Source: Clavelina lepadiformis
Taxonomy: Eukaryota > Chordata > Ascidiacea > Aplousobranchia > Clavelinidae
DNA length: 64,000 nucleotides
Reading direction: 5' to 3'
Assembly: GCF_947623445.1 (NCBI RefSeq)
Contig: NC_135247.1
Span: forward strand, 2,048,501 to 2,112,500
The notes beneath the pieces are model-generated. The model worked only from the letters and a program-made list of their open reading frames with translations, was not told the DNA's origin and ran no database searches. Positions 21,063 to 51,703 of the stretch are shown in pieces. The stretch's first letter is position 1. Each line of letters opens with the position of its first letter. A program made the position numbers and the translations under genes.

Positions 21063-23933
21063 ATGGGGGCTTACAAGTACATGAGTGAAGTATGGCGGAA
21101 AAAGCAGTCCGACGTTATGCGTTATTTGCATCGAATTAGATGCTGGCATTTTCGTCAGCTCTCGGCAATACATCGTGCTCCAAGACCGACCAGACCAGAC
21201 AGGGCACGAAAGCTGGGATACAAAGCCAAACAAGGTAAGTGCTGATGATTTTATGGTATGGTTATCATTGGTTTTAATTAGGATGATGTAGATCTATATA
21301 TGGATTTTCACTCTTTTGATTGTTGGCCGCAAAATGAAAACTTTGGGTGGCAGTGTGCTGCACTCAACCAAAAAGATTCTGTTTCGAAACATGGAATAAT
21401 TTTAAAATTATACATTTGTAATTGTGTAGTAGGCCTAGCATTTGAAGGACCACTGGAAATTTTAGAATTTAGACCTTTTCAATGTGTATATTCCGCCAGT
21501 TGTAATCACTAGATTGCTTTGTATGTCGTACTTAAAACCACAATGAAGAACAACAATGGTTCACTTGCGATGAAGTAGAATTGTACAGCTAGCCTTATTG
21601 CCTTGACTAGAAAGTAGACTATGGCCATTTTTGACAAGTTGCGATGTTAGGCATGACACCATGGGTTAATGCCTTAATATTGTTTAGCATTTTGTTTTTT
21701 GTTGCTGTATTGATCATTTGTATCTCTGGACTGCAGAGTATGGTAGTTTTTAGCAAGATCTTGGGTGCGCCAAACAACCAAAAACGACAAGTGTGGTGTG
21801 CAAAAATGCTCAGATGCAATAGAATTGTGTACTTCGTTGCGCAATTACACACTAATGTACACAGTTTGACTTATTCAATATTTAAATATATTGAAAATTG
21901 AGTGTACAGAAATTCTTTCATAGTCATTAAGTGTAAAATAATGCACCTTAGTGCGGCACTGAAGGTAATATCCAAGTGCGCATATACCAAAGTCAACAGT
22001 CTGGTTGTATCTGTTTGTAGTTGGTGACTTTATTGGTTTGTCGTATGTATGCTGAAATTCAAGGCTAACAATGTAACTCAATATCCTTAAGATGATAAAT
22101 AAAGTTTAGATTTAATTTTTGAGATAGATGTTGCCAATATATGTAAAGTTACACTAATTGTTTTTTTCAAATTTTCCAATGGTGACTAATTGTTACTATC
22201 ATCTGAATTAGACTAAACCTCACAACGGACACTTGCAACAAAATTATCATAGTACAGGAAAGACAGCTTGCCAAAGTTAATATTTTAGTGGTAATTCTGT
22301 TTTTTTCTGATTTTGAGGGTTTCGAGACATATAGCTTAAGATAGCATTCAAGAAGTTGAAGTGGTCTTTGTGCAGATTTTATGTTGTTCGAATAGTTGAC
22401 CTTAGGATATAGGAAGCATTTATTGCAAAAGGCTTCTGTAATTTGCTTATGTCCATTGAATTAATTTTCACAATGTGCATCATCTGGCAGTATGTGCCAA
22501 CTTAACTATGACACTGCCGTAGATGAGTTTTTACAACTGATTATTATTTGAACTTCTGCTATACTTAATGAAATGTTATTTTGTTGTGACTTGAGTCGCC
22601 AGAAAAAGAATGGGTTTTAGTAAGAGGAATTTACTTTAACCATCACTAATTGCTTGTGATCTCAAAACAAATAATAAATTGTTGATTTTGGCTATGGCAT
22701 ATGGCTAGAAAGCAAAACCTAAGAAGTTCACTATATAATTGTTCTGTGCTATTTAATAATGTAGATGTTATTCAGGAAGACCCCGGTGTTCGTCTAGAAT
22801 CCCGATTAAAAGACTTTTTGTATATGTATGATAACTTAAAACCATTATAAATATTGTCAAAAATTATCTGTCAACTGGAGCATTGCCTAGTCTCAATAAA
22901 CTAAAAACTAGTTGAACTACACTTTTCAATTTTGTGTCGGATCCATATTATGCTCTCAACACCACTTTTTGTGTTTCCAGGTTATGTAGTTTACAGAGTG
23001 CGTGTGAGGCGCGGGGGACGCAAGCGACCTGTGCCAAAAGGTGCCACTTATGGAAAGCCTGTTCACCAGGGAGTGAACCAGCTTAAGTTTGCCCGCTCTC
23101 TACAAAGTGTTGCTGAGGTAGGCATGCCAGTTGTTGAATTTAGCTTGTTCCAAAGCAAGATTCTAGGTTTAAACACATGTTATCCACGTTTCAACGCTGT
23201 CTGGTGAATGCGCATGGCAATTGCATAAACGTTCTGCTGCATATGGAATGACATCTGGTTAATCTGCGTCTTGGCTGAAATGACTTCATCATAGCACAGG
23301 GCTTCAACAAGTACTTTGCCCTCTTTTTAATGTTTTTTATTTTAAAGGAACGAGCTGGACGTCATTGCGGGGCCCTTCGTGTTCTCAACAGTTATTGGGT
23401 GGCCGAGGACTCAACTTACAAATATTTTGAAATTATCTTGGTTGATCCGATGCACAAGGTATGGAATGCTTCAGTCTGCACATAAGACAATTTAAGCCCA
23501 CAGCGTTTCATTTTTGTCATTATTCGTCATAAAACTAAGTATTCTTCACTCGTAATATGTCTGTAGATGTTGCAGGTTTAGCCGACTTTGCGTAAATCTG
23601 ATGTGATAAAAATATTTTTCAGACTATACGCCGAGATCCATCAATACAATGGATCTGTAAGTCTGTGATGAAGCATCGTGAAAACAGAGGCCTCACCGCA
23701 GCAGGACGGTCGAGCCGTGGCCTTGGCAAAGGACACAAGTTCCATCAAACCATTGGTGGGTCTGCGCGGGCGGCTTGGAAGAGACGAAACACCACTCAGG
23801 TCTCTATTGTTCGGGGTTTTGTCCAAATGTTGTTGCATCCATTATCTTACTGGCGAACTTACTGCTGTATTTTTTTAGACAAGAAAATTTTAATGCATAT
23901 ATTTCTATTTTGCAGATGCGACGCAAGAGATGA
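21063..23933 (+). CDS. RPL15: Ribosomal protein L15 (eL15), 5 coding exons
   Basis: Coding exons are 21063-21234, 22981-23117, 23348-23458, 23623-23799 and 23916-23933, giving 204 residues, the usual eL15 length. The protein starts [17 protein letters not shown] and keeps the eL15 blocks [54 protein letters not shown] and [20 protein letters not shown]. It is a structural protein of the large ribosomal subunit. The last exon codes only six codons and gives an MRRKR end where most animals have LHRYR or a similar end. The acceptor of exon 4 lies two bases ahead of the duplicated segment, which begins at 23,625, so a truncated copy of exons 4-5 exists in inverted orientation at 44.1-44.6 kb. This copy is the only complete one. 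Confidence 0.96.
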
Positions 23934-24098
23934 GCATTTTAAAGCTTGTGATATTCCCGTCATTAAAATACAAAACATTAACCTTAAATTTGCTTTTTAT
24001 ATAACCACAGCCGCTCATACTCATGGTCATTATATACTCGAAACTATATCATTGCGATATCGAACTTTCGTCGTGGACCATACTTTTACCCTATAGGC

Positions 24099-24569
24099 CA
24101 GGGGTGGCCAGACCTGCTTCATGCTCGAGCCGCATATAAAAAATTCCAGTTTTATAAGAGCCACAACACAAACACAATAAAAACCACGACTTTATTCACT
24201 CACAAAAAAGTGTAGCTATTGATTAACATTAGTGCTGCGTGGTGATACTATGAGTCTCCAACTGGGCTTTACCAACTCTTTTTGCAATTATTATTATAAC
24301 AGTAACCAAGACTTAAAACTAGGTCAGCCCTGACGTACAGCTTCAATCTGACAGTTTACTTAACTACAGTGTACAAGTTAGCACACGTCTGTGCAATAAT
24401 GTACTCTTTGGAGTGTAATTTGATTATTACTAACGATGAGTCCATTGTTACTACGTGTCATAGAACGCATCGTTTCATAATCTGATCAAACAACTCGTCT
24501 AGACCGGGAAAATGCATGTCTAATTCATCAACGCTAATTCATTAAAGAGCCGCAGTTTGGCCACCCCTG
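24099..24569. mobile_element. hAT-type MITE, CAGGGGTGGCC family (left-arm copy)
   Basis: The ends are CAGGGGTGGCCAG and TTGGCCACCCCTG, with flanks CTATAGGC (24,091-24,098) and CCATAGGC (24,570-24,577). The same insertion sits at the matching place in the right arm with the intact TSD GCCTATAG. It was therefore present before the arms were duplicated. Confidence 0.88.
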
Positions 24570-24577
24570 CCATAGGC

Positions 24578-25136
24578 TACCGCTATTATGTGGCAAAGAC
24601 ACTTTGCAGAGCTTTTAAAAAGGGGAAACATGGCGGCTTCGCTTGATCATTATCACCGTCCTAACCACGCAGGGCAGACCACTGTGTATATGAGGACTCT
24701 GCGAATCTTTAGAAATTGGTTTAAACAGAACTATACTGACCTGGCCAGAATTTATTCGATATAAAGTCAAATCACGGTTTTACAAATGAAGATCATGACT
24801 CTCAATTTGCTCGCTGCTGATCTGGATTCAACGAAATCTCAAAAGCCGCCAGTGCTTTTTTTATTTTGGTGGTTTTAGTTATTTTATCTGTGTCGTATCA
24901 GTTTCGAGCTGCATATTTCATGAGAACTGAGGACTCATCCCTTGCAGACGAATTTTGTCCGTTGTCACAGAAGCTAAATTCAAGCGGGCTAAATCGCATG
25001 AGGTGACGTTTGCTGTTCGACTTTTGTCGAGTCCTGATGCTTGCCACAAAGTTTTTGCGTGTACCTGGGAAAACGGAAACAATTTTAACAGAAATACGAA
25101 AGTTAGGCTTAACTCAGTCATCGTAGAGCTAACTGG
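24578..25136. other. SLC22 3' flank, unusually identical between arms
   Basis: This lies between the MITE and the SLC22 stop. The roughly 240 bp next to the stop (24,897-25,139) show no difference by eye from 43,060-43,302, while other parts of the arms differ at several percent of sites. No separate gene is recognised. Confidence 0.45.
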
Positions 25137-28100
25137 TTACTTTTCTTGCGCTGCCGCTTCTTCCATGGTGTCGGGAAGTGGAAGTGATCTGGTTTCAGGA
25201 AGAAAATAAACTCCAAACGCCGCAAGAATTCCAACCAATCCTGTCACTAAGTACGGTATGCCGGCGTAATATTTCTCTCCTATTTTGGGAGAAAACAAAA
25301 CCGTTTAGACAGCTCGCAATTTGTGATTGGGTAAGAATACGCCCACGTTGAAGCAGGGTTGGCCTTAGCAAGTGTGGGGCCCAATAAAAGAACTGATAGC
25401 AGAGTCCATTTGACGATTTTACATAACTTAATGTAATTACGTAACTAAATATCAAAGCGTTGCTCCATGATGTATTTTCATCAAAACATTCTCTTTCGAA
25501 AGCAAATTGAGAAATAATTCTGTGATTCGCGCAAAGTAAAAGCTAAATTTTTGTTTTGGCGCAAAACTGGGCAACGCGGTTGCGTCACTCGCATTGGTCC
25601 AAAGCCGGACCTGCTTTGAAATGTCAGTCTCTCGCAGATTGAAAACATTTGTTAGGTGATATTAAGAGTGGCATTTCCTGATATTAGTTGACAAATGCCC
25701 AGCACTATAAAATATACAGATGATTGACATATACGGACGTGCTACTTAAGTTAAGAAATGAATATAAGTATCCTGTGCGTAACTGTAAATACTCTCAAGG
25801 TGGCCCTTCAAAGAAGCCAACTAAATGTTTTCGGCTGCCGCTTGGCATTTTGATCAGCCGGAATTTGGAAAAAGTAGGCATAATATAAGCATAATCATAT
25901 CCTTATAAATTACAATCAAATATGTATTGAAGCAGTTATGGAAATAATAACTCTTATACTTCAACTGCTTTACCAACCCAAGTATATGACAAAGGGCGCT
26001 GTTATTCCCGATATTCTGGCTACGGCCGAGCAAAGTCCATAAGCTTGATTCCGTAGCAAAGTGGGAAATAATTCTCCAGTTAATATCCAAGCGTTTGCAA
26101 AAGCTCCTGAACCAAAAAATAATCCCATCAAGCTGAAAACAGTAACTGCTGGCTGGTCTGTACAAAACATGTCTATGGTTAATAATTAAATCTTACAGCG
26201 TAGTCCACATGCAGAAAACTTTTGTCACGCACAAGTTAACAACTGCAGCATACAGGGAAAGCCTATGTTAACTCATGATTTCAGTTTAGTTCACGACACT
26301 TAGCCAGTTCTAGCCTTACCCGCGCGGGTTAAAAGAAGCTTTGGGCAATTCATTTTAATTTAACGGTATCCTGCACCTTTTAATTAACAAACTTCCTCTG
26401 TGAGTTATTTAACTATGATTTTTTTTAAATTACTTGCATTTGCTTAACCCAATCGTAATAAGACAGCAAACAGCGGCCAAGCCAGTCATCGTGCAGTTCG
26501 ATAATCTTCCGCCCATTTTGCGAATTGAAACTTGACAAAGTATTGCGCTCGGGATTTCAACAAGTCCAGCTAAAACTCCATTGAGATAGCGGTTTCCGGC
26601 GAGATTTTTAACATTGAAAAACAAGCCGTAATACTCCAAATTCACCGCAAACCTGTATGGAATGACGACACAATAGCTATCCGACGACATAATAACTGTA
26701 TGACGCCACAGTAGCTTACTATCATCGGAGTTACAAACAACTTAAAAGGCCATAGTCTGTCGTTCTATCAGACTTACCATACTCCAACCAGTATCAGGAT
26801 CCTTTTACGTAAGAAACCTGCTTTAAGAAGGTGGATGTAGGTATATCTTGTGGGCTTTCCAGTCTCTTCTTCTGCGACCAATGACTTCGCTTCTATCTTT
26901 AAACATAACTGAGTTAGAATGCGATCGGCAATTGTTGAACGCGACTTGATTTGAAAACTCACTTTTTTGTCGTTGATAGTTTGCTTCCTAAGAAACCGCG
27001 ACAATTCCATGTCGTTTCTTTCAACACGGTTAATTCGAGACATTTCCTCCAATAATTTCATAGCATCGTCGTTTCTCTTCGATTGCAGCAACCATTTCAA
27101 AGACTCCGTTACATATCTGCGTCGCGGTTGCGTCGCTCGCATTGGCCCAAAGCCGGACCTGCTTTGAAATGTCAGTCTCTCGTTGATTAAAAACATTTCC
27201 TAGGTGATATTAAATGTGGCGTTTCCTGATATTAGTTGAAAAATGACCAGCACTATAAAAATACAGATGATTCACAAATACGGACATGCTTTTTAAGTTA
27301 GAAAATGAATACAAGTATCCTGTGCGTAACTGTAAATACTGTCAAGTTGGCCCTTCAAAGAAGCCAACTAAATGTTTTCGGCTGCCGCTTGGCATTTGGA
27401 TCTGCCGGAATTTGGCAAAAGTGGACATTATATAAGCATAATCATATGCTTATAAATTACAATCAAATATGTAATTAAGCAGTTTTGGAAATAACTCTTA
27501 TACTTCAACTGCCCAACCAACCCAAGTATATGACAAAGGGCGCTGTTATTCCCGATATTCTGGCTACGGCCGAGCAGAGCCCATAAGCTTGATTCCGCAG
27601 CAACGTGGGAAATAATCCTCCAGTTAATATCCAAGCGTTAGCAAAAGCTCCTGAACCAAAAAATAATCCCATCAAGCTGAAAACAGTAACTGCTGGCCGG
27701 GCTGTACAAAACATGTCTATGGTTAATAATTAAATCTTACAGCGTAGTCCACATGCAGAAAACTTTTGTCACGCACAAGTTAACAACTGCAGCATACAGG
27801 GAAAGCCATAGACATGTTAACTCATGATTTCAGTTTAGTTCACGACACTTAGCCAGTTCTAGCCTTAACCGCGCGGGTTAAAAGAGGCTTTGGGCAATTC
27901 ATTTTAATTTAACGGGATCCTGCACCTTTTAATTAACAAACTTCCTCTGTGTGTTATTTAACTATGATTTCTTATAAAGTACTTGCATTTGCTTAACCCA
28001 GTCGTAATAAGACAGCAAACAGCGGCCAAGCCAGTCATCATGCAGTTCGATAATCTTCCGCCCATTTTGCGAATTGAAACTTGACAAAGTATTGCGCTCG

Positions 28101-30282
28101 GGATTTCAACAAGTCCAGCTAAAACTCCATTGAGATAGCGGTTTCCGGCGAGATTTTTAACATTGAAAAACAAGCCGTAATACTCCAAATTCACGGCAAA
28201 CCTGTATGGAATGACGACAAGGTACTATCTGACGACATAATAACTCTATGACGACAAAACACCTTAGTATCATCCGAGATACAAACAACTTATAAAGTTA
28301 TAATATAAGGGCTTAGTCTGTCGTTCTATCAGACTTACCATACTCCAACCAGTATCAGGATCCTTTTACGTAAGAAACCTGCTTTAAGAAGGTGGATGTA
28401 GGTATATCTTGTGGGCTTTCCCGTCTCTTCTTCTACGACCAATGACTTCGCTTCTATCTTTGAACGTAACTGAGTTATAATGCGATCGGCAATTGTTGAA
28501 CTCGAGTTGATTTGAAAACTCACTTTTTTGTCGTTGATAGTTTCCTTGTTAAGAAACTGCGACAACTCCATGTCGTTTATTTCGACACGATTAATTCGAG
28601 AGATTTCCTTCAATAATTTCATAGCATCGTCGTTTCTCTTCGATTGCAGCAACCATTTCAAAGACTCCATTACATATCTGCGTCATTCATTATAATTGAA
28701 CGTATGGTACTAGAATGCTATGATGGTATTTTACACGCAAAAAACTTCAAAACAAGAGATATAGATTTCGAAAGTAACTTGATCAACGTTATGCTGTACA
28801 TGAAAACGCCAGATCGCAAACTACTTCATATATTCATTACAAGAAAGGTGAAATCACGTTCTCACAAGTAAATTGGGATGATGAGAAGGAAGTCGGCAGC
28901 AGCCATCAACCCCATCATGTGGCGCCAGTTTGGCAAGAGATAATTCACTAGAGGCGCCAATACCACGTTTACACCCATACCAGCAATATTTATGTTGCCA
29001 GAAAGTGAGCGGTATTTTTCCGGAATAATCTCGCTGACTGAAATGTATATTGTGATCATTTTACATCCTTACTGTTGTCACGAGTGGTTCGGTTAGAGCA
29101 ATGCTGAAATGCTATCAACAACATGAATGTACGTTAAAGAAATAAGTTTTCCATCGACTCTAAAGCCAAATACATAGACATCTCACTCATGACAAATTCG
29201 CTGCCGGCTCTTGTTGCACAACAGCATCCCATCATAAACAGGATTGGATGAGACAGAGACCAAATCGGTATAACTGCCAATGCTGCTGCGCCTGCGCACA
29301 TACCAATTACGGATCCCAACAGAGCTTTCCTTCGGCCCCACCTTAAGCAAATTAGGTTATCTTCGAAAAATTGAAATCGAAATCAAAAATAAAAATTTAG
29401 CTAAAGAAACTATGTTTATTGCTGAAACACACCTATCGGAGACGAAGCCCCCGATTATTGAGCCAGCCAGAAACCCAAACATGTATAAGGATGACGCCAG
29501 CGGTACGAACCAGGACCGGTCACAAACAAGATCAAACTGAAAACAAGACATTTATATTCTCGTTAGTTTGGCGCTAATGTAATATATTCACTCAAGTCCC
29601 GCTACCTTGTATATAGGCTACACGTAGGCACTAGGCTATTTGATTGCAATTACACTGGCCATGGTGCAGACAGCGATAGGCTACACTTACTTCCATTGGC
29701 ACGGTAAGCAACTTATCAAGTGTATCATACTCCCAGCCATCCGTACATTTGCCGATGTCGCTACTGTTAATGGTGGTGAATTCTTCTTGGTCATTCCTCC
29801 AACTATCTGGGGTAAACCAAAGGTTGAGTAGGATTGCAAGGCACTCTGTGCAAGGGTCTAAAGCCTTTAAACTTTACATTACGCCGCTTAGCCATTGTAA
29901 CTAGCCACCTGCAGTTGTGTTAAACGTATAACATTGACTCCACCTCTGAGTCCCATCGGGCCCTGTTTCAATCGGTGTGATATTAAAAAGACAACTGCTT
30001 CTCGAAACCACGGTCACGTGACTTTCGGACCTGAGAAAACAAGGAAGTTTAATGATTTGAGTCGAAAATATTGCTATTGACATTGCCTCGCCTGTTCAAA
30101 CAAGTGCTGTTCGAAGCATCGTCGATGGCTGCTATTGAGCAACGATGCGGTGGTGTGTACAAGGGAAATATGGCAAACCAGATTGCAAATGGCGCGTTGA
30201 ATGCACCGGACAGACATAGCAGCAACAATATGCGCTTTTGAAAGAAACCAAACTGCTCAGTCGCTTTGCTCAACTCCTGCAT
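25137..30282 (-). CDS. SLC22-type organic ion transporter (MFS) with a duplicated exon 7-9 cassette
   Basis: Solute carrier family 22 proteins are 12-TM plasma-membrane transporters of organic cations, anions or zwitterions. Minus-strand exons: 1, about 30092-30282; 2, 29909-30030; 3, 29703-29845; 4, 29433-29536; 5, 29187-29341; 6, 28866-29037; 7a, 28339-28677; 8a, 27987-28201; 9a, 27522-27701; 7b, 26778-27116; 8b, 26438-26652; 9b, 25978-26157; 10, 25137-25279. One cassette gives about 587 residues. Family marks are PPHRC and several Asn-X-Thr/Ser sites in the first outer loop, CTDGWEYD then FDLVCDRSW, DRWGRRK (exons 4-5), ESLKWLLQSKRNDDA and TGELFPTLLRNQAYG. Exon 8 donors are GCAAGT, a GC-AG intron. 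Exon 1 has no in-phase GT donor; a GC donor after AACAG is the option that fits. Substrate cannot be told. Cassettes a and b cannot be joined in frame. Confidence 0.85.
25575..27122. repeat. Tandem segmental duplication inside SLC22, unit 1 (exons 7b-9b)
   Basis: This unit of about 1.55 kb is followed directly by a second copy at about 27,123-28,684. The join reads CTGCGTC then GCGGTTGCG at 27,117-27,131, with short overlap to both outer ends. The right arm has only one copy, so the duplication arose after the arms separated, or was lost there. Confidence 0.88.
27123..28684. repeat. Tandem segmental duplication inside SLC22, unit 2 (exons 7a-9a)
   Basis: This is the partner of unit 1. It carries exons 7a, 8a and 9a with the same lengths (339, 215 and 180 nt) as the b copies and all coding frames open. 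Confidence 0.88.
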
Positions 30283-31455
30283 GGTTCTCCTACGCTTGAT
30301 GTAAAGAATAAACTGTAATCGGTATTTACAAAACTACATCAAACGAACTGGTTTATCAGCCGTTGCTTATAAAACTGATATTTGGTGCTTCACTGATGAC
30401 TAATGCTTTCAAGTGTTCTGCTAGCATACGTGCTGACACATTTACTACCACCTCAGCATATATCGGCCACAATAAGGTTTATGATGTCAGCAATGTTTAC
30501 ACCGGCATCAACTGGTGACCTGTTTTTTCTAAATTCAGAGGCTTTTTTGTTGAAAACGTCAGCTCGCTCAGATCAGCTGACGATTGGTCACACTTCGCTG
30601 ATCTGTTTCTTAACTATCATTTTGACCGAATAATAAAGGAATGTTACGTCATATGTCAACATGATGATAACTCTATGTTGATATCAACGCGAAGTTAATA
30701 AATCTGGTTTGGCCGTCTAAATACGGCTTGGTACTTATACGAACTGTACTTATATTCCGTGCATTTAACTACTTTATCTTAATTTGAAGTATCTTTTAAA
30801 CATTCATACCTGCTTTTTTGTTGGAAGCATTTTTATCAAATAGATTAATATATAGATTAATGAATAGATTGATTAAGAGTTTCTGGGCTTACATTTCAAA
30901 TACTTTACTGTAAACAATTGATAAAAATGTATGATTTTTTAGTAAGATAATGTCGTTAACCGGGTTCCCAATTTGGCGACCGAAAGTGCTCAATATATTG
31001 CAGTGACAAAAAGCTATCGTAGACGGCTAACCATCATCATTGGTCAGTGGATCCAGTAATTAGTTAAATTAGTCGGTGTGTGGTAAGATATAAGAGACGA
31101 CGGACTTTTTTCTAAAGAAACGCTTCTTGGAACAGACACTTTCATCACGTACAGGAACGTTAATAGCTGTAAGAAAACGGTTTATCCAACATGTTGTGAA
31201 ACTAGCCTTGTATAGTAACGGTTATATGCGGGACAGAAATAAGTCTCAGATTTTATCATGGTATTCAGATAGTAAAGGCTGATATGATATCAGCTTCTGT
31301 TTTCTATAAAAAAATTCAACTTGTGTCTTAGGTCACAAATCTCATAAGTTTGGTAAATTTATTAAGTTCATTTCTAAACGTGTTTTTTCGAAAGCAAAGA
31401 AAACTGCGCTTTACCGAATAAAAATAAGTTAGCAACCGTCGTTTTATGTAAGGCA
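30283..31455. promoter_or_regulatory. 5' flank of left SLC22, shared with the right arm
   Basis: This stretch mirrors 38,155-39,446 and holds the presumed SLC22 promoter. Short open frames in it are not supported as genes. It ends at the duplication join at 31,456. Confidence 0.4.
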
Positions 31456-31628
31456 AAGGTATGGAATGCTTCAGTCTGCACATAAGCCAATTTAAGCCCA
31501 TAGCGTTTCATTTTTGTCGTTATTCGTCATAAAATTAAGTATTCTTCACTCAGAATATGTCTGTAGATATTGCAGGATTAGCCGACTTTGCGTAAATCTG
31601 ATGTGATATAAATATTTTTCAGACTATA
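31456..31628 (+). pseudogene. Displaced copy of RPL15 intron 3
   Basis: These 173 bases match 23,456-23,628, from the exon 3 donor (AAGGTATGGAATGC) through the acceptor TTTTTCAG and the first six bases of exon 4 (ACTATA), with about ten differences. There is no exon 3 in front and no exon 4 behind; the sequence runs straight into the 3' flank of a 7TM gene. It is the trace of a tandem duplication that was later broken by an inversion. Confidence 0.9.
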
Positions 31629-31832
31629 GAGGTTGATGTAACGTCACTAATTTTTGATGTAAGTGTATATATGATGTCGATTTATATGTCCGAGATCATT
31701 ATTTTATCTAAAGAGAGCTTTAGAATTACAGCATTATCTTCGTTCATTTTGTAGTTTATCTGAGTTGACAACTCCTGCTCTTACGATTTTCCCATCACTT
31801 GTTCTTCTACTGCATTCCTCACACACGTCGCT

Positions 31833-35800: not shown

Positions 35801-36749
35801 CTACCATGGGCCGATAATTCTAGACTAAATACTCTTTTATGAGATGGAATTTGCGTGTAGAACTGTATATATATATCATAGATACACGCTTTATGCACGT
35901 TTTTTGTTTGTTACAATTTAAAATACATACTACATACACCTAATGAAAATACGATATACAGTAAAGAATCCCAGAAACAGTTTTGACGCAAACACACACA
36001 GTGACACTTAATTATATGACATCTACAACCGCTACAAGTGGAAGGAAAGGAGACAAGGAAAACAAAAAAGCAACAAAAGTTGAAAGACTATCAGCGTCTT
36101 CCCATCTCATGTTGATCTCGGAATGAATTTATTAAAACGCTTGAAATTTGCAGCAGGTCTTGTTCTTGACTGGGGACCGAAGTAAAATTTTGTTTGTTGC
36201 TTCGTACGAAATACTTTATAATATTAGGCCTCGGGATATTGCAGTTTGTCATGTCTACTACTATCTCCATGCAGTGCTTATTTGTACTAAATCACTGTTA
36301 AGATTATCCCATCACAGACTGGTTGATGATAAGATTAGGCCGCTTTAAATCTTCAAAATTAGTTTCAAGACGAACCAAATTTTAGTATCGTTAACAATTT
36401 ACAAAATTGAAGTAAAAATTAGTATTTCAACGACATGGCATTTAAAGGGTCTGTGTTTTTCTAGTTGGCATTATCCACTTCACTTGAATACGAATTAGCC
36501 AATAAAATATGCATTAAACTCTAAATTAAAACTTGTACGAATGATCAAGTATGCAAATATTGAATGAATAATTTAATAAATAAATTATTACGTTTGTCTG
36601 ACGGAGTTTCAATTTTTCATCCTCTTTATATCCAAGACAGCAACTTAATTAAAATGCAGCCGCATTCTTGTTTAATCATCTTTCTATCCTATTGTTCAAT
36701 TATATATCATCATATTCAATACATACGTGGCTATATACAGTCCGTCGCT
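32850..36749. other. Spacer between type 1 copy A and type 2 copy B (inverted)
   Basis: This matches, in reverse complement, the spacers at 47.6-51.7 and 56.1-60.2 kb. Short frames in all three copies are shared only because the DNA is recently duplicated. No gene is supported. Confidence 0.5.
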
Positions 36750-37763
36750 TTAACTCTGATTAATCACTGTATTTTTAGGGGATGACGAAAGCGAGATAGC
36801 GTCCTTTCTCGACGTTGTCATCGGGAAAAATCTTTTTCTCCAATCCGCAAACGAACAAACAACCATGCAGACGTTTATTGTCGTGTCAAAACAAGAGCAT
36901 AATCCGGTGAAGAATCTAGAAGCTCCCGCAGGTCGTACGTGCCTCGTGATGAGAAAAAGAAGGTCGGATGTGATGCAGATGGCGGTACAAGCGGCCAGGC
37001 GAAAAATCGTATTCTTCATTCTTGAAGAATGCTTCAAGTTTGTTCTCGAAACGTGATCAATGATTGGGTAGAGAACGAGCATCAACAAAACCAACTGAAA
37101 AAATGTCGATAAACCGAAACCCACGTTAGCTAGGATATTGAACACCAGACGATCGTATCTACCACTGGAAGGCCGACAACCCATAAGAGTGGAAACCATT
37201 TTACCGTGAACGATTCTAAATGCGTTCTGTACGACTGGGGACGCAACAATACCAATCAGAGTGATCCAGCTGATTACCTTCACCTTCAAAGTGTTTAAAC
37301 GTTCTTGGCCCTGAGCATTATAAAACCCTCTTTGTCGTATCCAAAGTATCAGGTAAGGCAGAAAGAGGTTGAATACGTAAATTGAAAAGTTCCAAATTTG
37401 AAAAATCGTACACATCCTTGTTGAAGTACCAACTCTTAAAGCGAACTCAAAAGCACTGATTCGAATAAGCAGCGTAAAAACTGCCAGAGTACAAAGCGTA
37501 TTCAACAACATCAATTTCCTTTGTCCAAATTTTACTTGATACCAAACCGTAACCCATACAAGGTAACTGGTAATCACCAGCAACACTCCTGCCATCGACT
37601 CTTCTGTGATTAGAATATCTTGAGCAGCCGGACGCTTATTTTTGGTTGAATTTGTCCATTCAGATGAGCTGGAAGCCACTTCTGGAAGTGGTTGGAACTC
37701 TGTGACAGGTTGCTGACTTCCTGTTAATTCTAAGTTGCTTTGCTCATCTGCAGTCATCTCCAT
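36750..37763 (-). CDS. Intronless 7TM receptor-like protein, type 2, copy B, with divergent 5' end
   Basis: The Met at 37,763 (MEMTADEQSNLELTGSQQ) aligns with the start of the other copies and gives 337 residues. The frame stays open upstream to a Met at 37,937 (395 residues), but that extension has no counterpart in the other copies. The body is type 2 (KFGQRKLMLLNTLCTL), with all seven helices and the LWIRQRGFYNAQGQ loop intact. Unlike copies C, E and G, its upstream DNA lacks the GAGAGAAATA repeat and the shared leader CTACGCGTTACTATACG. It may have a different promoter. It is the array member nearest the duplicated SLC22 segment. Confidence 0.78.
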   Translation of the reverse strand: MEMTADEQSNLELTGSQQPVTEFQPLPEVASSSSEWTNSTKNKRPAAQDILITEESMAGVLLVITSYLVWVTVWYQVKFGQRKLMLLNTLCTLAVFTLLIRISAFEFALRVGTSTRMCTIFQIWNFSIYVFNLFLPYLILWIRQRGFYNAQGQERLNTLKVKVISWITLIGIVASPVVQNAFRIVHGKMVSTLMGCRPSSGRYDRLVFNILANVGFGLSTFFQLVLLMLVLYPIIDHVSRTNLKHSSRMKNTIFRLAACTAICITSDLLFLITRHVRPAGASRFFTGLCSCFDTTINVCMVVCSFADWRKRFFPMTTSRKDAISLSSSPKNTVINQS

Positions 37764-38154
37764 GCAAGAAAGTGTTGCCCTGTTTGCATGCCAACTCGAT
37801 TGGTTTAATATTTCACAAGACTGCTTTGTCAGAATTATGGTTAAATTCGGGCCTAGAAAAAAGCTCACGCTTAGGTGAAAAAATTCTAAGATCAATTCTC
37901 TTTCAATATCTGATCTACATCTGTCTGTTAAGACCACAGTGCCATAGACTCGCTCCAGGGCAATGTGAGGCTATGTAGCATGTGTGAGGACAAACCATCA
38001 AACTTTTATAGCTGTTGAATCAATTATCCGGTGATCCGGTGTAATTAACCAATCGTTACAAGAAACTGAAAGCTTCTAATTTACAAATCTTTTTTCAATA
38101 TAATCTTGGTTATATATGTTTCGGTTGGCAAGAACCTTCGACTATTGTATGTAT
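37764..38154. other. Unique 5' flank of 7TM copy B
   Basis: This short stretch matches neither the inverted arms nor the upstream regions of the other type 2 genes. It probably marks the old left border of the 7TM array. Confidence 0.5.
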
Positions 38155-38157
38155 TTT

Positions 38158-39446
38158 GCCTTACATAAAACGACGGTTGCTAACTTATTTTCATTCGGTA
38201 AAGCGTAGTTTTGTTTGCTTTCGAAAAAACACGTTTAGAATTGAACTTAATAAATTTGCCAGAATTATAAAATTTGTGACCTAAGACACAAGTTGAATTT
38301 TATAGAAAACAGAAGCTGATATGATATCAGACTTTACTATCTAAATACCATGATAAAATCAGAGTCTTATTTCTGTCCCGCATATAACCGTTACTATACA
38401 AGGCTAGTTTCACAACATGTTGGATAAACCGTTTTCTTACAGCTATTAACGTTCCTGTACGTGATGAAAGTGTCTGTTCCAAGAAGCGTTTCTTTAGAAA
38501 AAAGTCCGTCGTCTCTTATATCTTACCGCACACCGACTAATTTAACTAATTACTGGATCCACTGACCAATGATGATGGTTAGCCGTCTACGATAGCTTTT
38601 TGTCACTGCAATATATTGAGCACTTTCGGTTGCCAAATTGGAAACCCGGTTAACGACATTATCTTACTAAAAAATCATACATTTTTACCAAATGTTTACA
38701 GTAAAATGTTTGAAATGTCAGCCCAGAAACTCTTCATCAATCTACTCATTAATCTATCTATTAATCTATTTGATAAAAATGCTTCGAATAACGGTGGCTA
38801 GTCTGAACCGTCTTGGCAGCAACATATCGCTGACGCAAATGGATCTTACAGAAGCTGTTAAAAAAATATGTTATCCCAATTCCAAAAATCCTAATTTAAT
38901 CGAACAAAAAAGCAAGTATGAATGTTTGAAAGATACATCAAATTAAGATAAAGTAGTTAAATGCACGGAATATGAGTACAGTTCGTATAAGTACCAAGCC
39001 GCATTTAGACGGCCAAACTCGATTCATTAACCTCGCGTTAATATCAACATAGAGTGAGTTATCATCATGTTGACCTATGACGTAACATTCCTTTATTACT
39101 CCGTCAATATGATAGTTAAGAAACAGATCAGCGAAGCGTGACCAATCGTCAGCTGATCTGAGCGAGCTAACGTTTTCAACAAAAAAGCCTCTGGATTTAG
39201 AAAAAACAGGTCACCGGTTGATGCCGGTATAAACATTGCTGACATCATAAACCTTATTGTGGCCGATATATGCTGAGGTGGTAGTAAATGTGTCAGCACG
39301 TATGCTAGCAGAACACTTGAAAGCATTAGTCATCAGTGAAGCACCAAATATCAGTTTTATAAGCAACGGCTGATAAACCAGTTCGTTTGACGTAGTTTTG
39401 TAAATACCGATTACATTTTATTCTTTACATTAAGCGTAGGAGAACC
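38158..39446. promoter_or_regulatory. 5' flank of right SLC22 copy
   Basis: This is the mirror of 30,283-31,455. It should hold the promoter of the right copy. No independent gene is supported. Confidence 0.4.
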
Positions 39447-42400
39447 ATGCAGGACTTGAGCAAAGCGACTGAGAAGTTTGGTTTCTTTCAAAAGCGCATA
39501 TTGTTGCTGCTATGTCTGTCCGGTGCATTCAACGCGCCATTTGTGATCTGGTTTGTCATATTTCCCTTGTACACACCACCGCATCGTTGCTCGATAGCAG
39601 CCATCGACGACGCTTCGAACAGCACTTGTTTGAACAGGCGAGGCAATGTCAATAGCAATATTTTCGACTCAAACCATTAAATTTCCTTGTTTTCTCAGGT
39701 CCAAAAGTCACGTGACCTTGGTGTCGAAAAGCAGTTGTCTTTTTAATATCACACCGATTGAAACAGGGCCCGATGGGACTCAGAGGTGGAGTCAATGTTA
39801 TACGTTTAACACAACTGCAGGTGGCTAGTTACAATGGCTAAGCCGCGTAATGTAAACTCAAAAGGCTTTAGACCCTTGCACAGAGTGCCTTGCAATCCTA
39901 CTCAACCTTTGGTTTACCCCAGATAGTTGGAGAAATGACCAAGAAGAATTCACCACCATTAACAGTAGCGACGTCGGCAAATGTACGGATGGCTGGGAGT
40001 ATGATACACCTGATAACTTGCTCACCGTGCCAATGGAAGTAAGTGTAGCCTATCGCTGTTTGCACAGGGGCCAGTGTAATTGCAATCAAATAGCCTAGTG
40101 CCTACGTGTAGCCTATATACAAGATAGCGGGACGTAAGTGAATAACTAACATTATCGCCAAACCAACGAGAATATAAATGTCTTGTTTTCAGTTTGATCT
40201 TGTGTGTGACCGGTCCTGGTTGGTACCGCTGGCGTCATCCTTATATATGTTCGGGTTGCTGGCTAGCTCAATAATCGGGGGCTTCGTCTCCGATAGGTGT
40301 GTTTCAGCAATAAACATAGTATCTTTAGCTAAATTTATATCGGTCCTTACGATTTTAACTTTTCGAAGATAACCTAATTTGCTTAAGGTGGGCAGAAGGA
40401 AAGCTCTGTTGGGATCCGTAATTGGTATGTGCGCAGGTGCAGCAGCATTGGCAGTTATCCCGATTTGGTCTCTGTCTCATCCAATCCTGTTTATGATGGG
40501 ATGCTGTTGTGCGACAAGAGTCGGCAGCGAATTTGTCATGAGTGAGATGTCTATGTATTTGGCTTTAGAGTCGGTGGAAAACTTATTTCTCTAACGTACA
40601 TTCATGTTGTTGATACCATTTCAGCATTGTTCTAACCGAACCCCTCGTGACAACAGTAATGATGTAAAATGATCACAATATACATTTCAGTCAGCGAGAT
40701 TATTCCGGAAAAATACCGCTCCCTTGCTGGCAACATGAATAATGGTGGTATGGCTGTAAATATGGTGTTGGCGCCTCTAGTGAATTACCTCTTGCCAAAC
40801 TGGCGCCACATGATGGGGTTGATGGCTGCTGCCGACTTCCTTCTCATCATCCCAATATACTTGTGAGAATGTGATTTCAGCTTTCTTGTAATGAATTGGT
40901 AATGAAGTAGATTGCGATCTGGCGTTTTCATGTACAGCATAACGTTGATCAAGTTACTTTCGAAATCTACATCTCTTGCTTTGAAGTTTTCTTTGCGTGT
41001 AAAATGCCATCATAGCATTCTAGTGCCATACCTTCAATTATAATGAACGGTGCAGATACGTAAAGGAGTCTTTGAAATGGTTGCTGCAATCGAAGAGAAA
41101 CGACGATGCTATGAAATTATTGAAGGAAATCTCTCGAATTAACCGTGTTGAAATAAACGACATGGAATTGTCGCAGTTTCTTAGGAAGGAAACTATCAAC
41201 GACAAAAAAGTGAGTTTTCAAATCAAGTCGAGTTCAACAATTGCCGATCGCATTATAACTCAGTTACGTTCAAAGATAGAAGCGAAGTCATTGGTCGTAG
41301 AAGAAGAGACGGGAAAGCCCACAAGATATACCTACATCCACCTTCTTAAAGCAGGTTTCTTACGTAAAAGGATCCTGATACTGGTTGGATTATGGTAAGT
41401 CTGATAGAACGACAGACTAAGTTCTTTTAAGTTGTTTGTATCTCGGATGATAGTAAGCTAGTGTGTCGTCATACAGTTATTATGTCGTCGGATAGCTACC
41501 GTGTCGTCATTCCATACAGGTTTGCTGTGAATTTGGAATATTACGGCTTGTTTTTCAATGTTAAAAATCTCGCCGGAAACCGCTACCTCAATGGAGTTTT
41601 ATAGCTGGACTTGTTGAAATCCCGAGCACAATACTTTGTCAAGTTTCAATGCGGAAAATGGGCGGAAGATTATCGAACTGCATGATGACTGGCTTGGCCG
41701 CTGTTTGCTGTCTTATTACGACTGGGTTAAGCAAATGCAAGTAATTTAAAAAAAATCATAGTTAAATAACTCAAAGTGGAAGTTTGTTAATCCAAATGTG
41801 CGGGAACCTGTTAAATTAAAATGAATTACCCAAAGCTTCTTTAATCCCGCGCGAGTAAGTCGTGTTTTGCTAGAACTGGCTAAGCGTCGTGAACTAAGCT
41901 GAAATTGTGAGTTAAGGAAAGTTGGGTTAACTACACAAGCTTTCACTGTATGCTGCAGTTGTTAACTTGTACTTAACAAAGGTTTCCTACATGTAGACTA
42001 CGCTGTAAGACTTAATTATTAACCATAGACATGTTTTGTACAGACCGACCAGCAGTAACTGTTTTCAGCTTGATGGGATTATTTTTTGGTTCAGGAGCTT
42101 TTGCAAACGCTTGGATATTAACTGGAGAATTCTTTCCCACTCTGCTGCGGAATCAAGCTTATGGGCTTTGCTCGGCCGTAGCCAGAATATCGGGAATAAC
42201 AGCGCCCTTTGTCATATACTTGGGTTGGTAAAGCAGTTGAAGTATAAGAGTTATTATTTCCATAACTGCTTCCTTACATATTTGATTGTAATTTATAAGC
42301 ATTTGATTATGCTATGATCATGATTATGCCTACTTTTGCCGAATTCCGGCAGATCAAAATGCCAAGTGGCAGCCGAAAACATTTAGTTGGCTTCTTTGAA

Positions 42401-43062
42401 GGGCCAACTTGAGAGTGTTTACAGTTACGCACAGGATACTTATATTCATTTCTGAACTTAAGTAGCACGTCCGTATTTGTAAATCATCTGTATTTTTTTA
42501 TAGTGCTGGGCATTTGTCAACTAATATCAGGAAATTCCATTCTTAATATCACCTAAGAAATGTTTTTAATCAGCGAGAGACTGACATTTCAAAGCAGGTC
42601 CGGCTTTGGGCCAATACGAGCGACGCAACCGCGTTGCCCAACATAGCGCCAAAACAAAAATTTAGCTTTTATTTTGCGCAAATCAGAGAATTATTTCCCA
42701 ATTTGTTTTCGAAAGAGAATGTTTTGATGAAAATACGTCACGAAGCAAAGTGTTGATATTTAGTTACGTTATTATTGCATTAAGTTTTGTAAAATCGGCA
42801 AAGGGACTCCGCTATCAGTTCTTTTATTGGGCCCCACACTTACTTCAACGTTGCCGTATTCTTACAAAATCAGAAATTGCGAGCCGTCTTTAAAAAGTTT
42901 TTGTTCTCTACCAAAAAAGGAGAGAAATATTACGCCGGCATACCGTACTTGGTGACAGGATTGGTTGGAATTCTTGCCGCGTTTGGAGTTTATTTTCTTC
43001 CTGAAACCAAGTCACTTCCACTTCCCGACACCATGGAAGAAGCGGCAGCGCAAGAAAAGTAA
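39447..43062 (+). pseudogene. SLC22-type transporter, right-arm copy, probably a pseudogene
   Basis: Exons match the left copy: about 39447-39637, 39699-39820, 39884-40026, 40193-40296, 40388-40541, 40691-40862, 41056-41394, 41520-41736, 42044-42223 and 42920-43062. Exon 5 is 154 nt instead of 155 because one base is lost at the GRRK motif (GTGGGCAGAAGG against GTGGGGCCGAAGG), shifting the frame. Exon 8 is 217 nt instead of 215, with two extra bases that make GTTTTATAG, an in-frame stop. Other exons are open and the GCAAGT donor of exon 8 is kept. The acceptor of exon 10 is weakened (AAAAAAG for AAAATAG). Only one copy of exons 7-9 is present. A truncated transcript is possible. Confidence 0.82.
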
Positions 43063-43622
43063 CCAGTTAGCTCTACGATGACTGAGTTAAGCCTAACTTT
43101 CGTATTTCTGTTAAAATTGTTTCCGTTTTCCCAGGTACACGCAAAAACTTTGTGGCAAGCATCAGGACTCGACAAAAGTCGAACAGCAAACGTCACCTCA
43201 TGCGATTTAGCCCGCTTGAATTTAGCTTCTGTGACAACGGACAAAATTCGTCTGCAAGGGATGAGTCCTCAGTTCTCATGAAATATGCAACTTGAAACTG
43301 ATACGACACAGATAAAATAACTAAAACCACCAAAATAAAAAAGCACTGGCGGCTTTTGAGACTTCGTTGAATCCAGATCAGCAGCGAGCAAATTAAGGGT
43401 CATGATCTTCATTTGTAAAACCGTGATTTGACTTTATATCGAATAAAATCTGGCCAGGTCAGTATAGTTCTGTTTAAACCAATTTCTAAAGATTCGCAGA
43501 GTCCTCACATACACACTGGTCTGCCCTAGGTGGTTAGGACGGTGATAATGACCGAGCGAAGCCGCCATGTTTCCCCTTTTTAAAAGCTCTGCAAAGTGTC
43601 TTTGCCACATAATAGCCTATAG

Positions 43623-44082
43623 CAGGGGTGGCCAAACTGCGGCTCTTTAATGAATTAGCATTGATGAATTAGACATGCATTTTCCCGGTCCAGACGAGTT
43701 GTTTGATCAGATTATGAAACGATGCGTTCTATGACACGTAGTAACAATGGACTCATCGTTAGTAATAATCAAATTACACTCCAAAGAGTAAATTATTGTA
43801 CAGAAGTGTGCCAACTTGTACACTGTAGTTAAGTAAACTGTCAGATTGAAGCTGTACGTCAGGGCTGACCTAGTTTTAAGTCTTGGTTACGGTTATAATA
43901 ATAATTGCAAAGAGTTGGTGAAGCCCAGTTGGAGACTCATAGTATCACCACGCAGCACTAACGTTTATCAATAGCTACACTTCGTTGTGAGTGAATGAAT
44001 TCGTGTTTTTTATTGTGGCTCTTTTAAAACTGGAATATGTTATATGCGGCTCGAGCATGTGAAGCAGGTCTGGCCACCCCTG
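43623..44082. mobile_element. hAT-type MITE, CAGGGGTGGCC family (right-arm copy)
   Basis: It starts CAGGGGTGGCCAAAC, ends CTGGCCACCCCTG, and has an exact 8-bp TSD GCCTATAG at 43,615-43,622 and 44,083-44,090. It is the same insertion as 24,099-24,569, inverted with the arm. Confidence 0.92.
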
Positions 44083-44267
44083 GCCTATAGCCTATAGGGT
44101 AAAAGTATGGCCCACGACGAAAGTTCGATATCGCAATGATATAGTTTCGAGTATATAATGACCATGAGTATGAGCGGCTGTGGTTATATAAAAAGCAAAT
44201 TTAAGGTTAATGTTTTGTATTTTAATGACGGGAATATCACAAGCTTTAAAATGCTCATCTCTTGCGT

Positions 44268-44563
44268 CGCATCTGCAATATAGAAATAAATACATTAATT
44301 TTTTCTTGTCTAAAAAAATACAACAGTAAGTTCGCCAGTAAGATAATGGATGCAACAACATTTGGACAAAACCCCGAACAATAGAGACCTGAGTGGTGTT
44401 TCGTCTCTTCCAGGCCGCCCGCGCAGACCCACCAATGGTTTGATGGAACTTGTGTCCTTTGCCAAGGCCACGGCTCGACCGTCCTGCTGCGGTGAGGCCT
44501 CTGTTTTCACGATGCTTCATCACAGACTTACAGATCCATTGTATTGATGGATCTCGGCGTATA
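44268..44563 (-). pseudogene. Truncated RPL15 copy (exons 4 and 5 only)
   Basis: On the minus strand this repeats RPL15 from TATACGCCGAG of exon 4 through intron 4 and the short last exon (MRRKR and stop). Exon 4 is open and encodes the same residues as the parent. Exons 1-3, intron 3 and the acceptor of exon 4 are missing, so it cannot make eL15. Confidence 0.9.
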
Positions 44564-46570
44564 AGAATGGTTTTGTTCTTAAACCGGTGCGGCTACATTA
44601 ACATTTAAAGAGAAAGCAACATGTGATCGTTTGAATACCTAAATACATAAAGTGTTAGAAAAGCAAAGTATTCAAATAAAGAAATACTTTACCTAAAGTA
44701 AAGTAATAAAATGCTGAATACTACAAGAATCTTCGACAAATTACAAAAATAGAAATTCAATTTTTTTAAAAAAAAAACACCTCTTGCTAAGTTTCCGACA
44801 AAAGACCACCGACAACAACCTGTACACTTTACGGCTCATCAAAGGCTTTGTGAAGTGAAATACGCTGCAAAAAGTGCAATGCCCTACGGTAGACCATCAT
44901 TTGATCTTGCTTAAGAAACGACAAACAGACCTTCGTTTTGCCATTGGTCAAGGATATTAGCTGCATGAAATTCAAACTTTGTAACGCTTTGACATAAGAG
45001 AGATTACATAACATTGGGGAACTGCATAAACCGACTTTATGTTTGCTTGTGATAATTTTACTTTGGCTTCGTCGTTTTTAGTTGTGACCTATTTTATTTC
45101 AACCATTGACACTGGACAGTGGTTACTATGTGCGATTGTTATATCGTTTTATTAGCAAAACATTGTAAGCATTTGTGTAAAACTACGGATAATAAAAAGG
45201 TTACCACATTAGAAGCAAATTGGCCAGCTATCTAATGACGTGTATAAGGCGCGTGTTAGAAACCCATAATTACATGGAATTTAAAAGTATTTAATAAATT
45301 CATCAACTCGTAATAATAGGTGTCTGAGAAAGTGTAAGTTATAGTGGTAATTGATGTTTTTATCCATTAATTGCAAACAAATCACAGTGTTATTCATATA
45401 CGCTATTTTTTGTTGTTACTCGGACAATTTTATGTTATACAAAACATTTTCATCGCCTATTTAATGTACTTCAGCAGTGTTTAAAATTATTAAGCATTTG
45501 TTGAAAGATAAACAAAACATCCCAAGTCCTTTACAGTCAACACGACATTGCAGAACTGGTTAGTGATTAAAGAAGAGCAAGCACCAAGTTTAGTGAACAA
45601 TTTTTCCAATTGTCAATCAATTAGACAAAGAATTGCAACAAAGAAGTTTGAAATATATTCTATTACTGTACAAGCAACGACCATGACCATGGCCAAGACC
45701 ACGTTTTAGTGATTGCGACAAGGTATAATTATACAAAAAGTGTTGGACTTTCAAAAGAGCCTTTATTCGTTTAGTTTAAGCATTACTTTAAATTGAAATT
45801 GATTGCACACACAAAAAAAACTTATTTTAAAATTAACTCTATAAACCTCAATTTAATCCTAAAGCATTTAATTGATGTTTTGTAATTTCCCCTAACACAA
45901 ACCACCTGTCTCTTTATCAACACACTTCGTGACCTACTGAGATAAAGTGGTACAGACTTTAAGTGAAATTTTTGCTGATTTTTTATCTTTGATTTGGACC
46001 AGTTTGGGTCGAAGTGTATAGATTTGTCATTGTGTATGTGGTGTGTGGATGTAGCGCTTGTGCTTCGCCTTTTTTTCATTAAAAAGCTCAACAAGACACT
46101 CTTTGCATATACACCAGTCGCTTTTCTTATTTATCTATAGCTTAAACCAAACGGCACACGGCCAGATTTGTAATCGCCCACTCACATACAACCCATTCAA
46201 ACTATTGAAAAAATTAACAATATATTTTGATCGTTAGCAACAATCGAATAAGTTGAATGAAACTCGCAAGGAAGTACGATTTATAACTATTTCTGATTCT
46301 GGCTCGTTCGCCGACTCGCATTAACGTAACTTAAGAAGAGTTTCTTCAGTGTTGCCAGCAACAACAGAGAGAAATAGAGAGAGAAATAGAGAGAGAAATA
46401 GAGGGAGACAGAGAGTGAAGTGAGAGCTTGCCTTGGCGAAACTTTTTTTACCACCGTGACGTGCTTTTTTTCCTTCGACAACATCTTTACCATCTTTCGG
46501 AAAAAGGACTTTTGAAATATTATAAACACAGTCCTAGCAAGCAAGCAGAGCTACGCGTTACTATACGAAA
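44564..46570. other. 7TM array spacer upstream of copy C
   Basis: It matches the 3' part of the type 1 to type 2 spacers (53.1-55.1 and 61.6-63.6 kb), but starts abruptly at the inversion join. It includes a stretch with recurring AAGTA words (44.64-44.73 kb) and the GAGAGAAATA microsatellite before the gene. Confidence 0.6.
46360..46420. repeat. (GAGAGAAATA)n microsatellite upstream of 7TM copy C
   Basis: A run of AGAGAGAAATAG units lies about 150-210 bases ahead of the ATG. The same run stands ahead of copies E (54,907-54,965) and G (63,396-63,440) with different unit numbers, and is missing from copy B and from type 1 genes. Confidence 0.85.
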
Positions 46571-50500: not shown

Positions 50501-51697
50501 GGTTCATGAAAAGCAACTTGTAAATATGCAGGAGTGTCTTATTAAAGACTGGCAAAAGTAGAAGTAGTAGTCCAACAAACAAAAAATTCATACTAGAAAT
50601 TCTTGCTGGTGTGCGGTACAATGTCCCAAATAATTCACCCAATTCGTTTTAATGTTACGAGTTCGATTGAAACAGGTAGCATTCTTTGTTGGGGTCAAAT
50701 TAGCGAAAATAACTGATAAGACAACGATCGAACACTTAGAACCATAAACCACCTCCGATTTTGTCTTTTGCTTTGTCGTAGTTGTTCATAATATTTTGGT
50801 ACAAACTTTAGTTTTTTTTTGCAAGGTGCTGAACCAGCTCAAGGACTTACTTCAGCAAAGTTTTCACGATCTCTTTCGGAGTCAACATCGTCATTCTATG
50901 AATGTATTGCATGCTCCTGTTAGCATGGAAATCTATTTCTTCTTCAGTGGATATTCCATTAGTCTTATATAAAAATCACTAAATACACACTTTTACTCCA
51001 TAGGTGGAGGTGTTGCATCCTACCGTATACTATTTTGATAAGACTAAAGTTAAAAGTATAATTTTGCATAAAAATTAAAAATTTATTCTGTAATATCAAC
51101 CCATACAAACTATAAACCTTTCCCTATACTGGACAACTAAATTTGATTTAACGTCTTAATCTTAAACCGCCAGCAAAGTTTTAAAAATGCGCTTTCTTTT
51201 CAACATTTTTGTTATACAGTGATTTAATTTCCTGCTGCAATTATAGATTACTTTTGCAAAAATCTGTGAGACACCAACAATCATTATTAGTCAGTATCTA
51301 GCAATTATAATAATTATACGAAGCGTGATAATGTGAAAACGACAACAGACTTCATTATAAAGAAACGTTTCCTGGAGCCGATATTTCCATGATATAGACA
51401 TGTTATTAGCGTTGACGTACTATTAGCTGTAAGAGCGTAAGTAGACGGTTCATTCGTCTATTTACGATGCTCGACTTTGGCCATTTTATTTAACAGCAAC
51501 TAGTCTCTCATTTCGTTCTGGTGACAAGGTGAAGAAGCGCTTTTGTATAAAAAACAATTCGTGCATCCAAATATTTTTGCTAAGTGGCTGTATCCATGTA
51601 TCCTTGAAAAAAAACTTAATTCACGCATTTCTTGCAGATTTATCCTATAACGTTTATGAGGTAGTTCTATCAAGTAAAGAAAGTTGCAGTTTAGTGC
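47582..51697. other. Type 2 to type 1 spacer, unit 1
   Basis: About 4.1 kb of AT-rich DNA repeated at 56.1-60.2 kb and, inverted, at 32.9-36.7 kb. Short frames such as 48,782-48,994 are found in all copies but lack start, splice or codon evidence of being genes. A TTTCTTGCAG acceptor-like site at about 51,628-51,637, just ahead of copy D, may end a 5'UTR intron. Confidence 0.5.
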
Positions 51698-51703
51698 ATG
51701 AAA

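Follow-up and report, generated by a model that had tools for sequence, protein, structure and literature searches.

Inversions that carry duplicated segments at their ends have been described in several animals. Copy-number-variant (CNV)-flanked inversions, with their dupINVdel/dupINV subclass, form a described class in which the inversion is accompanied by duplications and deletions (Collins et al. 2017, PMC5338099). Inversions with inverted duplications at their breakpoints have been described in Drosophila, namely 2h and 2q of D. mojavensis (PMC3355041) and O4 and O8 of D. subobscura (PMC5080602); the latter paper calls the duplications of the D. subobscura O3+4 inversions 'only consistent' with staggered breaks. 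For the BC supergene of Danaus chrysippus, duplication is inferred to have preceded the inversions at its edges (PMC9189502). Here, we describe a locus of the sea squirt Clavelina lepadiformis, located in a stretch of 64,000 nucleotides of contig NC_135247.1 (assembly GCF_947623445.1, positions 2,048,501 to 2,112,500; hereafter the window, the coordinates of which are used throughout), where two inverted copies of a segment with RPL15 and SLC22-like sequences surround a loop derived from a neighbouring array of predicted seven-transmembrane (7TM) genes. We judge this locus to be an unusually legible case of duplication-flanked inversion, a known kind of rearrangement. Inverted duplications at the ends of inversions are often credited to staggered breaks; the locus has the same layout together with a mark that is at odds with the simple form of that explanation, namely 173 bp of the DNA flanking one arm, copied in direct orientation. 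The arrangement of its sequences very probably reflects a tandem duplication, followed by or made together with an inversion that lost 198 bp at one of its breaks.

Self-BLAST revealed that the left arm (23625..31455, plus strand) and the right arm (38155..44563, minus strand) are inverted copies of each other, with matches of 23625-27120 to 44563-41052, 27123-30825 to 42633-38900, and 30824-31457 to 38785-38155; the original prediction of two inverted copies was thus borne out to the base by self-comparison and alignment. The arms differ by substitution at 293 of 6231 aligned bases (4.7%). By self-BLAST and arm alignment, the left arm would represent the parental copy, which runs from RPL15 exon 4 onward and includes a miniature inverted-repeat transposable element (MITE) and the SLC22 gene on the minus strand, while the right arm, also identified by profile match, would represent the rest of the second tandem copy in inverted orientation, with a SLC22 copy and a 5'-truncated piece of RPL15 exon 4. 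The loop of 6.5 kb between them (31629..38154, minus strand; self-BLAST) contains, in inverted orientation, the unit with which the predicted 7TM array begins, together with the unique left flank of this array (37739-38154). The left arm is longer than the right one (7,831 vs 6,409 bp) because an internal 1.55-kb tandem duplication (units 25575-27122 and 27123-28684) is present in the left arm only; the right arm has 116 bp near 30821 (left-arm coordinate) without a left-arm counterpart, and there are further smaller gaps between the arms. The residual arm differences are these length changes within the arms. Alignment of both arms and of the loop borders, which the original prediction had named as its check, was run, and every predicted join is present.

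What sets the locus apart from a plain inversion with inverted duplications lies between the left arm and the loop. Here, a stretch of 173 bp (31456..31628, plus strand; self-BLAST and sequence), which we term the relic, consists of the last three bases of RPL15 exon 3, intron 3, and the ACTATA of exon 4 in direct orientation, and would be the start of the second tandem copy. It matches its parent directly by self-BLAST (23452-23628 to 31453-31628, 94.4%) and differs from it at 9 of 170 bases (5.3%). Nearly all of the relic originates from the parental RPL15 intron 3 (23459..23622, plus strand; sequence and self-match), which, with its edges, is the DNA just outside the left arm. In the genome-wide search, the 173-bp piece was found in two places only, the parent and the relic (in this and the other genome-wide searches the best candidates were scored). 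The four bases TATA (23625-23628) mark the end of the relic as well as that of the right arm. Thus, self-BLAST and the join sequences agree with the earlier description of a 173-bp direct copy of RPL15 intron 3 that ends at ACTATA.

The relic bears directly on the staggered-break model of inversion, in which two offset single-strand breaks, here ~7.8 kb apart in one duplex, are filled in. This is a published explanation for such layouts in Drosophila (PMC3355041; PMC5080602), and the inverted duplications flanking the inverted 6.5-kb loop are as that model predicts. However, the model also predicts that 31,455 is joined directly to the loop, whereas what is found there is 173 bp of the outer flank, copied in direct orientation and abutting the exact break bases. 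One duplex cannot supply this extra copy, so an added templated insertion would be needed that ended at the same TATA by coincidence. The simple form of the model is rejected because it leaves the direct relic unexplained, and a staggered-break origin of the locus is very improbable. Excision of a circle followed by its reinsertion (an idea of PMC7188851) was rejected by reasoning, because the relic adjoins the left arm instead of the copy in the right arm.

The three joins were read directly from the sequences, as the three-way alignment of the tandem join was unusable at the join itself. At the tandem-duplication join (31455..31458, with the junction between 31455 and 31456), comparison of the parents and the join reveals a left parent of ...GGCAAA and a right parent of AAGGTATGG..., with a 2-bp microhomology AA at 31456-31457. 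The AAG at 31456-31458, which forms the end of exon 3, is thus where the second copy begins, and its AA is present in both parents. At the left inversion join (31625..31628), the ...ACTATA of exon 4 is followed by the reversed spacer ATAGAGG..., and the parents have ATA (3 bp) in common. At the right inversion join (44563..44564), the reversed exon 4 ...CGTATA is followed by the spacer AGAAT..., which resumes after the 198-bp loss; the parents have nothing in common (0 bp microhomology), and at this position all four intact spacers have AATTAGAAT. The TATA of exon 4 is thus found at both inversion joins, with 1-4 bp of it present at both, as a single cut would give. The reciprocal breaks of the inversion fall into the same two ancestral places, one being this TATA and the other a spacer, both halves of which match one spacer type. 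Joins with 2, 3, and 0 bp in common are as in end joining, which was presumably the repair pathway.

Two of the three joins have short microhomologies (2 and 3 bp), as would also suit replicative template switching, that is, fork stalling and template switching (FoSTeS) or microhomology-mediated break-induced replication (MMBIR), which is one of two mechanisms offered for CNV-flanked inversions (PMC5338099). In such a scenario, the replication fork would have left 31,455, restarted at 23,456, and copied 173 bp. At the array spacer it would have moved to the other strand, run back as far as 23,625, and finally resumed in the forward direction. However, its exits at 23,628 and, ~13 kb later, at 23,625 would have to coincide by chance, whereas one cut explains both, and the third join lacks microhomology; we consider template switching unlikely. 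A repeat- or transposon-mediated inversion (ectopic recombination) was rejected, as the breaks have only 3 and 0 bp in common and the MITE is located inside both arms and not at the breaks.

The second break of the inversion maps to the predicted 7TM array, which contains 11 intronless genes for predicted multi-pass (7TM-like) proteins between 31833 and ~82900 with a period of ~8.5 kb. These 11 close members share at least 81% identity with one member, while the next-best match has 39%. Nine of the 11 genes are on the plus strand, and the sole two minus-strand genes (31833-32852 and 36750-37970) are those in the loop; the un-inverted part of the array occupies 44564..64000 of the window (plus strand), and its last gene found ends near 82,900 in window coordinates. 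The two halves of the broken spacer match an intact one in reversed (31626-36048 vs 52919-48511) and direct (44561-49722 vs 53112-58267) orientation, respectively (self-BLAST). The stretch absent from the broken spacer (52917..53114, plus strand) is kept in all four intact spacers, where its length is 198, 197, 197, and 186 bp; a spacer break with loss of about 198 bp, proposed originally from copy D alone, therefore agrees with four intact spacers. The split-spacer alignment was misaligned and was not used. No other copies of the 198-bp stretch were found by genome-wide search, and no further copies of the array's left flank were found in the genome. The alternative that the 198-bp stretch is a later insertion in the other spacers was not favoured, given that no dispersed copies were found and no flanking direct repeat was seen by eye; a loss from the broken spacer is the more probable reading. 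As judged from the strands, the head-to-head region between the SLC22 copy and the adjacent array gene appears to have moved as a block with the loop.

Based on these observations, we propose the following history. A segment extending from the end of RPL15 exon 3 and intron 3 (~23,456) through the SLC22 5' flank (31,455), ~8.0 kb in length, would have been tandemly duplicated with a near-blunt join. Later or in the same event, two cuts would have been made in the chromosome: one at the exon 4 TATA of the second RPL15 piece, which by then lacked its 5' part, the other in a spacer of the adjacent predicted 7TM array. The intervening 12.9-kb fragment would then have been rejoined backwards by end joining, with 198 bp of the spacer lost. 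Such a course would convert the direct duplication into inverted arms around a 6.5-kb loop, strand 173 bp of the second copy in direct orientation, and leave the complete RPL15 intact throughout.

This history was examined by turning round the segment 31629-44563 by script and analyzing the listed self-matches of at least 150 bp. After re-inversion all listed self-matches are direct, including 23452-27120 to 31453-35140, 27123-30822 to 33559-37289, and 30818-31457 to 37401-38037. In the restored tandem repeat, comprising the arms and the relic, the offset is 8001 as far as the extra internal unit of the left arm and 6436 and 6583 past that unit, and the spacers come into register; the restored structure is a head-to-tail duplication with one join and an 8.0-kb first copy. 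Moreover, the 11 close array genes all share a strand after re-inversion, and among the 66 single reversals of gene order the proposed one is the only one with this outcome, as judged by strand alone. In the restored order the array gene types, as assigned by us, alternate, with spacings of 8.3-9.9 kb for type 1 and 8.4-8.5 kb for type 2.

The order of events is constrained by RPL15. The complete gene was found once in the genome, where its four left matches cover profile positions 1-190 of 191 in PF00827. The first of these matches is 21066-21242; the exons upstream of the duplicated segment (22980..23461, plus strand) correspond to the PF00827 matches 22980-23120 and 23342-23461, and the region 23623..23933 (plus strand) contains exon 4, recognized by the same profile, as well as what is probably the last exon (23916-23933, MRRKR stop), identified by eye. 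Profile matches to exon 4 were found in the genome only in the left gene and at the end of the right arm, where the RPL15 piece has neither the intron 3 acceptor nor exons 1-3. Loss of the ribosomal protein gene RPL15 should be lethal. If the inversion had occurred first, it would have cut the sole complete RPL15 just inside exon 4 and left no relic; hence, viability and the relic together argue that the duplication came before the inversion or in the same event. The locus would thus be a case of an essential gene escaping an inversion that breaks its truncated copy.

Several points weigh against the proposed history, in particular against two independent steps. The inversion break is only 173 bp away from the tandem join, which should be rare for two independent events: the chance of a random break so near the left end is 2.2, 2.6, and 4.3% for a second copy of 8.0, 6.6, and 4.0 kb, respectively. 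The right arm has one of the left arm's two 1.55-kb units, so that one further event is needed. The loop differs from the nearest array unit at 189 of 3103 bases (6.1%), slightly above the arms (p = 0.005), so that a common age of the two steps does not follow from these values, which the history of the array confounds. The type of the loop gene 36750-37970 is weakly set (91.9% to the best type 1, 90.3% to the best type 2, and 85.8% to another type 1 gene), thus the alternation of types adds little beyond strand there and supports the re-inversion more weakly than strand does. Finally, the ancestral order is reconstructed from one genome.

The 173-bp closeness favours linked breaks, and a single event is accordingly a serious possibility, if somewhat short of even. 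In such an event, two duplexes (sister chromatids or homologues) would have been cut at several nearby places in one repair episode: the left end at 31,455 would have joined a 173-bp piece of the other duplex (23,456-23,628), the 12.9-kb fragment would have flipped, and 198 bp would have been lost, giving a product identical to that of tandem duplication plus inversion. Besides the closeness of the breaks, the alike sizes of the pieces (173 bp kept vs 198 bp lost) and the 2, 3, and 0 bp shared at the joins are consistent with this scenario, and CNV-flanked inversions fit replicative repair or synchronous repair of several breaks (PMC5338099). However, simultaneity is not required by the sequence, since a fragile site near the tandem join, or counter-selection of breaks that disrupt SLC22, would place the two breaks likewise. 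We regard two steps and one event as about equally likely. The original prediction of a tandem duplication followed by an inversion thus stands with regard to all predicted joins, the re-inversion, and the spacer loss, but not with regard to the separateness of the two steps, to which a single multi-break event is a close rival. Still more tentatively, one repair event may have cut two chromatids at nucleosome-scale distances and made the duplication and the inversion together, with a short direct relic as a general mark of such events; if so, tandem duplications or events on two chromatids may underlie some of the published 'staggered-break' inversions, with a relic that is zero or was overlooked.

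The divergence of the copies does not separate the two steps in time. Divergence of the relic and of the arms is indistinguishable (9/170 vs 293/6231, Fisher p = 0.71), and separate dating of duplication and inversion fails because of array homogenisation, possible allelic divergence between homologues, and gene conversion. For instance, in the type 2 region array units 2-4 differ from one another by 0.1-1.4%, units 2 and 3 having 3 differences in 3,111, which suggests that these nearly identical units were recently homogenised or expanded. If the copies came from two homologues, they would have begun with allelic differences.

An assembly artefact, in which two haplotypes or array copies were misjoined, is the least probable of the alternatives. 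The arms differ by 4-5%, a level that allelic divergence in sea squirts might reach, and a repetitive array is located next door; however, the whole window consists of A, C, G, and T only, with 0 N across 124 kb from the window start, and the joins are base-precise and mutually complementary. In addition, no further genome copies of the relic, the array flank, or the SLC22 probe were found, the 1.9-kb probe having its genome matches in the two arms only. The published C. lepadiformis assembly, with 117-fold HiFi coverage and a quality value (QV) of 67.4 (PMC10884593), likewise counts against an artefact.

The transporter gene shared by the arms is SLC22-like: its joined exons match solved SLC22A1 (best E 2.9e-45) and score above the cut-off for MFS_1 (69.4 vs 33.4 bits) and below the model cut-off for TIGR00898 (279.9 vs 550.75 bits), while single exons have sub-cut-off Pfam matches only. 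The internal tandem duplication in the left arm (25575..28684) covers SLC22 exons 7-9 in our own numbering, and the doubled exons could represent either alternative exons or a broken gene. In the right arm, exon 8 (41522-41740) has 2 extra bases compared to both left-arm versions, which breaks the frame. The two internal units, L1 and L2, are 5.8% apart and differ from the right arm by 6.1 and 7.3%, compared to 3.9 and 4.7% for the arm parts outside; the internal duplication thus appears to be no younger than the large one, in which case the right arm would have lost a unit, and a conversion tract between L1 and L2 (2 differences in 173 in the window 600-800 of their comparison) blurs its age. 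The MITE is located at 24099-24569, with a right-arm counterpart near 43613-44081, and has the ends CAGGGGTGGCC and 8-bp flanking repeats; we take it to be hAT-like. Its presence in the same place in both arms indicates insertion before the duplication. Genome-wide, the MITE has at least 42 long matches including the two arm copies, with 40 of 463 candidates scored.

Elsewhere in the genome, the array genes have 56 weaker matches with no more than 39% identity. The array protein matches no Pfam family at the cut-off, and its structure prediction has a mean predicted local distance difference test (pLDDT) score of 37; the '7TM' label is a prediction read from the protein sequence. Beyond the window, an open reading frame of 205 codons between two array genes (79844-80458) matches PF13843 DDE_Tnp_1_7 (E 1.8e-34), a transposase that is presumably of the piggyBac type, and its presence may account for the last gene spacing being wider (9.9 kb). 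The window also contains a U6atac minor-spliceosome RNA gene (12273-12397, minus strand, 86 bits) and an exon of a NOP9-like PUF-repeat gene (5964-6299; PF22493, E 3.9e-12).

Among the open-licence papers found for the species, none is titled on this locus, and a comparable relic is not described in the excerpts consulted from the open-licence literature on inversion mechanisms. The mark, a short direct copy of the outer flank that ends where the opposite arm ends, can be sought at any sequenced inversion, which makes the choice of mechanism testable. In the dupINVdel subclass, an inversion is flanked by a duplication on one side and by a deletion on the other, as found here with the 8-kb duplication and the 198-bp loss. 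Unlike dupINVdel and dupINV, the present locus keeps a 173-bp direct piece of the outer flank at the first join, its copies are ~5% apart and not segregating in patients, and it has an inverted piece of 13 kb. In the BC supergene of Danaus chrysippus, too, a duplication probably preceded the inversions; however, that case is of megabase scale and presumably involved ectopic crossovers between the duplicates (PMC9189502), whereas the joins of the present locus have 0-3 bp in common and its breaks are located inside one copy and in an unrelated spacer. Like the Drosophila cases, the locus has duplicated segments (1, 4.3, and 7.1 kb in PMC3355041) in inverted orientation at both ends of the inverted segment, and truncated gene copies that decay while the other copy is intact (PMC3355041; PMC5080602). 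In contrast to these inversions, which were read as products of staggered breaks, the relic of C. lepadiformis suggests that a direct duplication or a second duplex was involved.

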